A stretch of 64,000 nucleotides of DNA from Methanooceanicella nereidis. GTDB taxonomy: Archaea; Halobacteriota; Methanocellia; Methanocellales; Methanocellaceae. The number at the start of each line of letters is the position of its first letter. Position 1 is the first letter of the stretch. Shown in pieces: positions 11,757 through 21,126 of the stretch. Under the pieces are notes generated by a model. It made no database searches. It was not told where the DNA came from and saw only the letters and a program-made list of their open reading frames with translations. The position numbers were made by a program, and so were the translations under genes. The DNA lies in assembly GCF_021023085.1 (NCBI RefSeq), contig NZ_PGCK01000011.1:1-64000 (forward strand). The letters are read 5' to 3'.

Positions 11757-12485
11757 ATGGTACGTGTCAGTGCTCAGGATCAGGATGAACCTGATGATCT
11801 GAAAAGCCGGGATTATGAAATTATCGATAAATTATTCGAATTAGCTAAAAATGGGAACCGCGCTGGAGCGGGAGTTATGATCAAGGCATGGAATGAAGCG
11901 CACAGGGGGGAGAACTTGATCGTATCGATATTGGAGCCGTTCCTTAATCTTGTCGGGGAGAAGTGGCAGCAAGGCGATATGAGCCTTGCACAGGCATATG
12001 TCGCTAATAAGATCGTGGAAGATGCGATCTTAGAATATAAAGTATCTGCCGACAAGGAGGTTAGATCGCACATCAAGCTTAAAGGGCCGATAGTGATCGG
12101 CAACATCGAGGGCGATTTTCATGGGCTCGGCCGCAAGATGGTCGGATTATTCCTGGAGGGAGATGGCTGGGAGGTGATTGACCTGGGTGTTGATGTGCCG
12201 GCGGAGGAATTCGTTGAGACCGCATGCCGGGTCGGGGCCCGGGCGATAGGGGTGTCGGCAATGATGTATGGTACGGCCGAGAATATAATAAAAATACGGC
12301 GTATCCTGGATGAGCGGGGACTGTCGGGCAAGATCAAATTGGCGGTCGGAGGTGCGGTGTTCAGGCTGCAGCCGGAACTTGCATGGAGGGTCGGTGCCGA
12401 CGGGACGTGTGAGAGCGCTATAGAAGCCCCGGCATTATTCGAACGTCTCTGGAAGGAGTCAAAAGAGACGGAGGGGGTATCATAA
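11757..12485 (+). CDS. Corrinoid (B12-binding) methyltransferase-type protein
   Basis: A 242-residue protein with the two-part corrinoid protein architecture of MtbC/MttC/MetH: a helical cap (residues ~20-95, EPFLNLVGEKWQQGDMSLAQ) and a Rossmann B12 domain. The cobalt-ligand motif DxHxxG is present as DFHGLG at 120-125 (axial His122), with the later GVSAMMYGT and AVGGAVF pieces that hold the nucleotide tail. In methanogens such proteins carry a methyl group between two methyltransferases. GGTGG at 11747 sets ATG 11757. It is first gene of a three-gene operon with a UroD-like protein and a histidine kinase. Confidence 0.85.
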   Translation: MVRVSAQDQDEPDDLKSRDYEIIDKLFELAKNGNRAGAGVMIKAWNEAHRGENLIVSILEPFLNLVGEKWQQGDMSLAQAYVANKIVEDAILEYKVSADKEVRSHIKLKGPIVIGNIEGDFHGLGRKMVGLFLEGDGWEVIDLGVDVPAEEFVETACRVGARAIGVSAMMYGTAENIIKIRRILDERGLSGKIKLAVGGAVFRLQPELAWRVGADGTCESAIEAPALFERLWKESKETEGVS

Positions 12486-12502
12486 ACTCAAGAGAAAGGG
12501 TA

Positions 12503-13507
12503 ATGGCTGTATTGAATGGCGAGAAGACTGATCGGCGTGCATTTGTCCCGATCCTGAACCTGTACGGAGCGCGATTGATCGGCGCAACAATGGAAAGGTA
12601 TTACCGGGACCCTGCATTGTACGCATCGGGACAGGCAGCGATCTTAGAGTCCTTTAGACCGGATATTCTATTATCTCCATTGTTTTATGCAGGCGAGGGA
12701 GAAGCCTTTGGGGCCAATCTCAAATTTTTCCCTGACCAGCCTCCGAATATCCGGAAATATCCCGTATCATCGGCTGATGAATTCCTGGAACTAGAATTTC
12801 CAGACATTGATTCCCAACCAACATTACAATATATTCGGGAATCGCTTCGGCTTACTGTGGAAAGGTGCAACAGTGACATCCCTGTTGCCAGTATTCTGCT
12901 AAATCCGATCGATCTTCCTTCTATGGTCCTGGGCATGGATGCATGGCTCGACGCGCTCCTGTTCAAAAGTGATCTTCATGCAAGCGTTTTTAACCGTACG
13001 ATCGACCACTTCGTAGCATATGGAAATGCCCTGCTTGCTGACGGCGCCTCCCTCCTCGTCTCATCGGGCGGTTTCCTGAGCAGCACCGTCGTAACACGCG
13101 ACCTTGTCGAGAAAGTCGTCATGCCCGTACTAAAGAAAGCGTTCGCGCAAATTGACGGGCCTATCGTCATACACAATGGCGGCTCTTCTATCCTCCCATT
13201 CATGGACCTATATAAGGATCTTCCTAATGTGGTCGCGCTTTATGCCAACGCTGGAGACGACCTGGCGAAAGCACGGCGAATGATAGGTGACGATATCGGA
13301 CTGGTGGGAGGAATGGACGGCCCAAGCCTGGATAGGTTCACGCCGGATGAGATATACAGGCGCTATGCCGCCATCTTAGGTGATCGCAGGGAAGACCCCG
13401 GCTTTATGCTCGGTACCACTGGACCGGACATTCCATTTGATACTCCGCCTGAGAATATCCTTGCAATGATACGGGCGATCGATGGAGTGAAATCAGGAAA
13501 TGTATGA
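12503..13507 (+). CDS. Uroporphyrinogen decarboxylase-family (MtaA/MtbA-like) protein lacking zinc Cys ligands
   Basis: A 334-residue TIM-barrel protein of the UroD/MtaA superfamily, which includes methylcobamide:CoM methyltransferases. It has the family's PDILLSPLFYAGEGEAFGA and GLVGGMDGPSL regions and the GPDIPFDTPPENI C-terminal signature. Active methyltransferases bind zinc through H-x-C and a later C; here the sites read IHNGG and TTGPDIP, so the His remains and both Cys appear lost. It starts 18 bases after the corrinoid gene and its last 8 bases overlap the kinase gene, so it is translationally coupled. It may act as a corrinoid-binding partner or sensor subunit rather than a standard methyltransferase (inference). 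Confidence 0.75.
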   Translation: MAVLNGEKTDRRAFVPILNLYGARLIGATMERYYRDPALYASGQAAILESFRPDILLSPLFYAGEGEAFGANLKFFPDQPPNIRKYPVSSADEFLELEFPDIDSQPTLQYIRESLRLTVERCNSDIPVASILLNPIDLPSMVLGMDAWLDALLFKSDLHASVFNRTIDHFVAYGNALLADGASLLVSSGGFLSSTVVTRDLVEKVVMPVLKKAFAQIDGPIVIHNGGSSILPFMDLYKDLPNVVALYANAGDDLAKARRMIGDDIGLVGGMDGPSLDRFTPDEIYRRYAAILGDRREDPGFMLGTTGPDIPFDTPPENILAMIRAIDGVKSGNV

Positions 13508-14765
13508 ACATAAAGGCAGTGCAGATCCTGCATATTCACTGCTGCTTGTGAATGTACTGGAACAAATGCTACAACAGGGAGGACATCCGGACCAGGTAGC
13601 ACATGCCCTGAACGTGCAGATCCGGGAGATAACCGGCGCACGTTTGGTTATCCTTCTACAGGCCGAAGAGAGATGCGAGCAGCCCCGGTTCATAATTCAT
13701 CCGGAAAGCAGGAGAGGGATCGCAGAAAGTATTGAGGCCAGGGAACTATACAAGGTCACGATGCAAACCGATTCTATTATGTTATGGGATAAGAGTTCTC
13801 AGGATCCTGTAGGCAACAGGCTGCTTTCTGCCTGGCAAATGAACAATTGCCTGAGCGTGCCTCTTTTTGTAGGCGCTGTGCGTGTCGGAACTCTTGTCAT
13901 TATGGACTTCAGCTTCACGGGGAACATCGACTCATTGATCAGCACCATGGATCGAATGTCCGGAGTCATAGGGCTCATCATACGGAACGCAGACTTATAC
14001 CGGGAGGTTGAACGGCTTGTGGAGGCGAGGACACAAGAAATAAACGAGCGTAAGAAAATCGAGGAAGAGTTGAAAGATGCAAAGCAACAGGCCGAACTCT
14101 ACCTGGACCTGATGAGCCATGATATTCGCAACATGAACCAGGTTGGCATAGGGTTCCTGGAGCTGGCGTTAGATTCGCCGGATATAATCCAGGCGGATAA
14201 GGAGTTGCTGTCGAAGTCGATGGGTTCGCTGGAGGCCAGTACTCATCTCATCGATAACGTTAAGAAGCTGCAGAAGGTCCGGTCGGGTGAGCTGAGGAAC
14301 TATAAGATCAACGCCTGCCTGGTTATTAAGCGTATTCTCGCACGCTATTCGATGATACCGGATATAAATGTCCGCTTTGAATGCAGGATACCCCCCTCGT
14401 GTCACGTGATGGCTAACGATCTCATTGGTGAAGTTTTCGAGAACATCTTGTGGAACGCGATCAAGTACTGCGGGCCTCAGCCGGTCATTCGCATCGAGTT
14501 CGAGGAAGTCTCGGTCCGCAGCAAGAGCTATGACATGATAAGCATAGAGGATAACGGCCCCGGTATACCTGATAACGTAAAAGACAGGATATTTCGCAGG
14601 CTTCAGCGAGGAGATACGCGAGTCAGAGGCGGTGGCATGGGGCTGTACCTGGTCAAATCGCTCGTGGAGAGCTACGATGGCAGAGTGTGGGTCGAGGACC
14701 GGGTACCGGGCGACTACACGAAGGGTTCCAGATTTATAATTATGCTGCCTTTAGCAGAACAGTAA
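13500..14765 (+). CDS. GAF-domain sensor histidine kinase
   Basis: A 421-residue soluble kinase. Residues ~15-165 are a GAF-type sensor, 165-200 a coiled-coil linker (ERLVEARTQEINERKKIEEE), then an H-box LMSHDIRNMNQ (His207) of the methanogen type, an N-box EVFENILWNAIKYC, G1 DNGPGIPD and G2 GGGMGLYLVKS. There is no membrane segment, so it senses a cytoplasmic signal. Its ATG overlaps the UroD-like gene by 8 bases. No response regulator is nearby. The operon suggests that corrinoid or methyl-transfer state is its input (inference). The GAF has several Cys but no clear heme motif. Confidence 0.85.
   Translation: MYEHKGSADPAYSLLLVNVLEQMLQQGGHPDQVAHALNVQIREITGARLVILLQAEERCEQPRFIIHPESRRGIAESIEARELYKVTMQTDSIMLWDKSSQDPVGNRLLSAWQMNNCLSVPLFVGAVRVGTLVIMDFSFTGNIDSLISTMDRMSGVIGLIIRNADLYREVERLVEARTQEINERKKIEEELKDAKQQAELYLDLMSHDIRNMNQVGIGFLELALDSPDIIQADKELLSKSMGSLEASTHLIDNVKKLQKVRSGELRNYKINACLVIKRILARYSMIPDINVRFECRIPPSCHVMANDLIGEVFENILWNAIKYCGPQPVIRIEFEEVSVRSKSYDMISIEDNGPGIPDNVKDRIFRRLQRGDTRVRGGGMGLYLVKSLVESYDGRVWVEDRVPGDYTKGSRFIIMLPLAEQ

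Positions 14766-20382: not shown

Positions 20383-21126
<744 letters not shown>

Follow-up and report, generated by a model that had tools for sequence, protein, structure and literature searches.

A corrinoid protein, a UroD-fold protein and a histidine kinase in one archaeal operon: a candidate sensor assembled from methyl-transfer parts

What is the role of an operon in which a corrinoid protein and a protein of the UroD/MtaA fold, both familiar as parts of methyl-transfer systems, are followed by a histidine kinase? Such an operon is present in a stretch of 64,000 nucleotides from Methanooceanicella nereidis (positions 1 to 64,000 of contig NZ_PGCK01000011.1; hereafter, the window), and its features are listed in Table 1 together with those of its closest relatives. 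The results presented here suggest that the corrinoid protein and the UroD-fold protein probably serve as the sensory input of the kinase in a three-protein sensor, a possibility raised in the initial annotation of the locus. This proposal gains support from the occurrence of the module across phyla without a recurring methyltransferase, from the swapping of its outputs, and from the retention of the GAF domain next to a native kinase core in the window. A signaling role of the module is well supported by gene order; beyond that, we infer physical contact between the proteins, a ligand, a corrinoid state that is read and a target of the kinase.

The tight three-gene operon described initially was confirmed, with three intact open reading frames on the plus strand that encode the Pfam domains as named. 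The overlap of 8 bases between the UroD and kinase genes agrees with the earlier description, whereas the gap between the corrinoid and UroD genes measures 17 bases, not 18. Upstream, the operon is flanked by a gene for a hypothetical protein, and downstream by tRNA-Thr, a gene for a Trm5-like tRNA methyltransferase and unrelated genes (the protein identities were read from the sequence). The flanking genes also bear out the statement that neither a small-donor methyltransferase nor a response regulator adjoins the operon. The GC content of the operon genes is 51-52% compared to 43% for the window, and their third-position GC is near or somewhat above that of the other window ORFs; this comparison yields no clear signal of transfer. 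Upstream of the first ATG, at position 12503, the UroD frame remains open (window positions 12479-12502), and homology to the UroD proteins of relatives begins about 8 codons before this ATG, such that a rare codon may be the true start.

Table 1. Features of the window operon and gene content of the related loci in two Desulfobacterota genomes (G600 and G625)
Feature	Position	Strand	Description
Corrinoid-binding protein	11757..12485	+	242 aa; B12 cap (PF02607) and B12-binding (PF02310) domains
UroD/MtaA-fold protein	12503..13507	+	334 aa; URO-D (Pfam, 2.1e-41)
Kinase, whole ORF	13500-14765	+	421 aa; HATPase_c (1.2e-20), GAF sub-threshold (Pfam)
Kinase, N-terminal GAF-type input, residues 1-178	13500..14033	+	Related to the GAF domains in the module outputs of G600 and G625
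Kinase, DHp (SHDIRN, H207) and ATPase core	14034..14765	+	Native core; 45-60% identity with dozens of kinases from genomes of this order
G625 locus			Corrinoid protein, UroD, DUF1638-GAF-PAS-PAS-HD-GYP protein
G600, first locus			UroD, DUF1638, GAF-PAS kinase
G600, second locus			UroD, short DUF1638 ORF, GAF-PAS kinase

The initial annotation had proposed to look for the same gene order in other genomes, and this order indeed recurs. When the window UroD was compared to 294 genomes of the same phylum, 21 of these, including that of the window, had one match each below the threshold of 1e-20; the corrinoid gene adjoins the UroD gene in all 21 genomes, and a kinase gene follows in all 20 relatives. 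A profile of the same-phylum UroD proteins detected relatives in named genomes, 301 in total; the best 80 of them, a sample that favors close relatives, represent at least 13 named phyla, with 65 bacterial and 14 archaeal loci. Because the 105 loci studied were picked by UroD similarity alone, the corrinoid and output genes in them can be treated as independent observations. As in the window, the corrinoid gene lies beside the UroD gene, directly upstream of it, in 103 of the 105 loci, the remaining two being cut by contig ends, and a signaling output is part of the cluster in 90, with most of the others stopping at a contig edge. The outputs contain a kinase ATPase domain (82 loci), GGDEF (9 loci) or HD-GYP (1 locus), two loci having both kinase and GGDEF; the output type thus swaps between HK, HK-REC, GGDEF and HD-GYP, with REC either present or absent. 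The three-gene order is far beyond chance, and a local oddity of a single genome is ruled out by the relatives in at least 13 phyla. It had also been argued that homologous operons that always contain a cognate methyltransferase would speak against a sensory pair; among the clusters of flanking genes found in at least 4 loci, there is no methyltransferase. The neighbors that do recur reflect synteny among Methanolobus-type genomes and, in bacteria, are receiver-domain proteins.

The window corrinoid protein is of the methyltransferase type according to Pfam, and its corrinoid motifs are complete. The B12-binding domain (2.5e-22) and the B12 cap domain both score above the Pfam cut-offs, and the D-x-H-x-x-G motif, which is present in 103 of the 104 module corrinoid proteins, reads DFHGLG at residues 120-125 (D120, H122, G125), with His122 as the base-off histidine; S167 and GG at 198-199 complete the set of motif residues. 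The protein is 47% identical to the module corrinoid protein of G625 and, at 101.6 bits, falls under the curated cut-off of 215.3 for TIGR02370. Its PDB matches include a methyltransferase corrinoid protein (1e-20) as well as CarH and other cobalamin-binding regulators (1e-7 to 1e-9). Given that CarH has the same two B12 domains, a light sensor based on B12, similar to CarH or the photocobilins, had to be considered as the source of the kinase's signal. However, the W-x9-E-H signature of CarH is absent: the EH pair is found in none of the 104 module corrinoid proteins, nearly all of which have Tyr in the place of His, and the window protein reads W70...A80-Y81 at this site. CarH-type light sensing was therefore rejected. 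Many of the carriers are, presumably, strict anaerobes, and we know of no role of a UroD-fold partner in light sensing. Thus, although the module resembles CarH and the photocobilins in the use of the B12 cap and B12-binding domains in signaling, it differs from them in the lack of EH, in the separate UroD partner and in the location of the output on another protein, and a light sensor appears very unlikely.

The second protein of the pair shares with the methylcobamide:CoM methyltransferases MtaA and MtbA the fold, the pairing with a corrinoid protein and one conserved histidine of the zinc site. The AlphaFold model of the window UroD (pLDDT 86.6) finds its best PDB match in MtaA (4ay7; Z 37.0, rmsd 2.1, 321 aligned residues), in agreement with the fold assigned initially, and the zinc-site histidine is kept in 103 of the 106 UroD sequences (His224 in the window). 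Unlike in MtaA and MtbA, both zinc cysteines are missing. The first is found in none of the 106 sequences, the position being occupied by Ala in 100 and Gly in 4 (Gly226 in the window), and the same holds for the second, where 101 sequences have His and others Gly, Ala or Ser (Gly307 in the window); two residues past the latter position, all 106 sequences carry a carboxylate, Glu in 100 and Asp in 6 (Asp309 in the window). Furthermore, the window UroD scores far under the cut-offs of the respective families (80.9 bits against a cut-off of 235.4 for TIGR01463, and 48.4 against 400 for MtaA). With both zinc cysteines gone, the simple label of an MtaA-like protein does not hold, and methyl transfer to CoM of the MtaA type is ruled out. 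In the UroD superfamily, the His-Cys-Cys triad marks S- and Se-methyltransferases, whereas in O-methyltransferases carboxylates or non-coordinating residues replace the cysteines (PMC10418091). On this basis, our guess is that the ligand of the module UroD could be an oxygen-bound methyl compound. In a Methanosarcinaceae-like genome (G084, L043:9468-10508), the UroD gene is interrupted by an in-frame TAG; the gene is intact in a near relative (L042).

These features also bear on the reading under which the operon encodes a small metabolic methyltransferase unit, with the UroD-fold protein as a substrate:corrinoid methyltransferase and the co-operonic kinase sensing by other means, through its GAF or PAS domains, and regulating other genes. 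Methyltransferase activity is known for UroD-fold proteins, some of which are themselves substrate-specific, such as the O-demethylases OdmB and VdmB (PMC10418091), so the initial statement that the operon lacks a substrate-specific methyltransferase does not follow. MtaA as the best structural match of the UroD model points in the same direction, as does the 55-65% identity of the main-clade UroD proteins across the domains of life, which is expected of a conserved ligand site or active site. The window genome, which is rated 100% complete, argues against a metabolic unit: it encodes no acceptor methyltransferase, no second UroD/MtaA-like protein, no RACo/RamA activase (PF14574) and no other corrinoid methyl carrier, the two other B12-binding proteins both being radical SAM proteins. 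In the absence of MtaA, another corrinoid carrier and RamA from this genome, ordinary methylotrophy is excluded. Moreover, no methyltransferase recurs near the relatives, and the linkage to signaling holds across phyla while the type of output changes. On balance, we consider a metabolic unit unlikely. A similar distinction applies to the type 1 mlp clusters described by Kountz and Balskus (PMC10418091), which likewise combine UroD and corrinoid proteins and are widespread in archaea and bacteria. Those clusters comprise multiple UroD proteins carrying His-Cys-Cys along with a RACo activase and sulfur or selenium genes, whereas the window operon has a single UroD without Cys ligands, no RACo and a signaling output.

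Most module outputs start with an N-terminal DUF1638 domain (PF07796), which the family HMM detects in 91 of the 105 related loci. The domain is part of the same protein as a kinase, hybrid kinase or diguanylate cyclase, or else has a small gene of its own; it is usual but not universal, and there are main-clade loci in which the kinase has no detectable copy (L042, L043, L079 and L123). In Phaeobacter, genetic evidence shows that corrinoid-dependent synthesis of methionine by a split methionine synthase requires a DUF1638 protein whose gene adjoins a corrinoid gene, and this protein has been proposed to act in B12 reactivation (PMC5764234); a DUF1638 protein of split methionine synthase is described in Ruegeria as well (PMC12478193). 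The strongest hint that the outputs likely read the corrinoid protein is that this corrinoid-linked domain is their usual input end. The Phaeobacter and Ruegeria proteins similarly work with a corrinoid protein but stand alone and serve an enzyme, whereas in the module DUF1638 is the N-terminal part of kinases, diguanylate cyclases and an HD-GYP protein. The structural model of DUF1638 is confident (pLDDT 93), its PDB matches are weak (best Z 7.7), and Foldseek yields scores of 4e-4 to 1e-3 to two-lobe Rossmann proteins of the LacI type and PrpR; these matches are too weak for us to claim kinship of fold, and no solved structure related to DUF1638 by sequence was found. Neither the window kinase (Pfam) nor the whole window genome contains DUF1638. 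For this reason, the reader in the window would be the GAF domain; either it does read the corrinoid protein, or the mechanism of the window copy is different or its function is being lost.

Several loci depart from the common layout. On the plasmid pTs417 of Candidatus Thiodictyon syntrophicum (L003:7278-12275), genes for a corrinoid protein, UroD, a RACo activase and a GAF-GAF-GGDEF protein lie in a row, possibly a further variant of the module with its own activase. In six Desulfobacterota loci (L063, L067, L078, L080, L095 and L113), the gene after UroD encodes a protein of 230-260 aa with no clear Pfam domain, and in four of these (L063, L067, L080 and L113), a hybrid kinase gene ends a few bases from the start of the corrinoid gene; perhaps, the former protein is a divergent DUF1638 and the kinase has moved upstream. 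On a plasmid of Azoarcus sp. KH32C (L002:9351-14500), a module that includes a DUF1638 kinase and a REC-HK-REC protein has formylmethanofuran/C1 genes on one side and PQQ methanol dehydrogenase genes on the other. This neighborhood hints at methanol as a possible signal and is compatible with an oxygen-bound methyl ligand.

The window kinase has all the expected boxes (SHDIRN at 206, with H207; N box at 313, G1 at 351, F box at 364 and G2 at 377) and, by sequence criteria, qualifies as a two-component histidine kinase, with autophosphorylation predicted. The lack of an adjoining regulator is common in methanogens, where orphan kinases are usual; in Methanosarcina acetivorans, only 7 of the 53 kinases are in an operon with a regulator (PMC11784639). 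The initial annotation had drawn a parallel to MsmS and RdmS of Methanosarcina, which likewise are methanogen kinases with GAF domains and whose genes lie close to those of corrinoid methyltransferases. This parallel is weak. MsmS and RdmS are implicated in heme and thiol sensing and have no H-box, RdmS being reported not to be an autokinase, which is likely true of MsmS as well (PMC11784639), whereas the window kinase has an intact H-box and shares an operon with the corrinoid pair itself.

Comparison of its two halves shows the kinase to be a mosaic. For residues 1-178, matches were obtained to the outputs of G600 and G625, in their GAF domains (8.5e-22, 2e-17 and 1.5e-7), and to none of the 11 native kinases compared; because the comparison set consisted of the module loci and these 11 kinases, GAF relatives might exist elsewhere. 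Residues 175-421, on the other hand, are 45-60% identical to dozens of kinases across the four genomes of the order, and the window's own genome alone accounts for 39 matches. Judging from these similarities, the GAF domain is kin to bacterial outputs and the core is native, so the input parts, namely the corrinoid protein, UroD and GAF, stayed together and were joined to a local kinase core. The catalytic end beside the GAF domain differs between carriers: the archaeon has this local core, G600 a bacterial kinase and G625 HD-GYP. Such persistence of the trio next to a varying catalytic end is expected if the trio forms the input.

Genome after genome, the best matches of the window UroD are module UroD proteins, including those of the two Desulfobacterota genomes (42 and 41% identity in G600, 33-34% in G625), with which it forms one clade (support 100/99). 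In the tree, this clade falls with the module proteins rather than with MtaA and UROD (98/91), although its placement with the main clade, apart from MtaA, is less certain because of the long branches; identity between the window UroD and the main-clade proteins is only about 24%, and their NHGE motif is missing from it. The window clade is rare, with three carriers and four loci among about 1,000 genomes searched; both G600 contigs begin inside the UroD gene, so that the corrinoid gene lies outside the view. The UroD gene is present in none of the three other genomes of the window's order, and the operon likely arrived laterally from a bacterium. One could then argue that the window copy was acquired laterally and is now a remnant, its parts still intact but its input uncoupled from the kinase for lack of DUF1638, as might be suggested by the absence of UroD from the three related genomes, by the divergence of the window UroD and by the absence from this genome of DUF1638, which the nearest relatives possess. 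The intact frames with their tight spacing, the complete corrinoid and kinase motifs, and the retention of GAF when the kinase core was replaced all speak against a remnant, as do the main-clade kinases that have no detectable DUF1638. We regard this reading as improbable, more so than a metabolic unit.

Under the model of a three-protein sensor, the UroD-fold protein would bind a small ligand, possibly an O-methyl compound, and would act on the corrinoid protein in one of two ways, as a methyltransferase that is slow or limited to a single turnover, or as a receptor. The third protein, through its input domain, likely DUF1638 in most relatives and GAF in the window, would then read the state of the corrinoid protein, be it methylated, Co(I), Co(II) or a conformation, and this reading would set the activity of the histidine kinase. 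More broadly, and with a confidence that falls somewhat short of even, we propose that corrinoid proteins paired with UroD proteins devoid of the zinc cysteines constitute a widespread sensory class, in which the pair is a receptor rather than a set of metabolic enzymes, and ligand-dependent methylation or redox change of the cobalt is read by DUF1638 (or GAF) and relayed to kinases, diguanylate cyclases and c-di-GMP phosphodiesterases. The outputs are ordinary two-component and c-di-GMP parts. To our knowledge, a sensory input of the corrinoid-UroD type has no precedent, and no description of the corrinoid-UroD-output module was found in the open-access literature searched. The module is, apparently, a widespread, undescribed sensor built from methyl-transfer parts, and there is a serious chance that it represents a new sensory class.

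Should this interpretation be right, methyl-corrinoid chemistry is put to use in sensing, not only in metabolism, among archaea and roughly a dozen phyla of bacteria, amounting to a sense for methyl groups or O-methyl compounds that relies on organometallic chemistry. DUF1638 would then be a reader of the corrinoid state, many proteins annotated as 'UroD family' or 'cobalamin-dependent protein', currently taken to indicate methylotrophy, would be explained, and there would be a testable route for anaerobes to detect methylated compounds. The window operon, as a minimal version free of DUF1638 in a genome without a competing methyltransferase, offers a clean test case.

Elsewhere in the window, an ORF on the minus strand (20383-21126) encodes a predicted secreted protein of 247 aa with an uninterrupted run of 27 Gln. 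The protein contains 43 Gln in total, encoded by mixed CAA and CAG codons in a tandem repeat, which is unusual for an archaeon.
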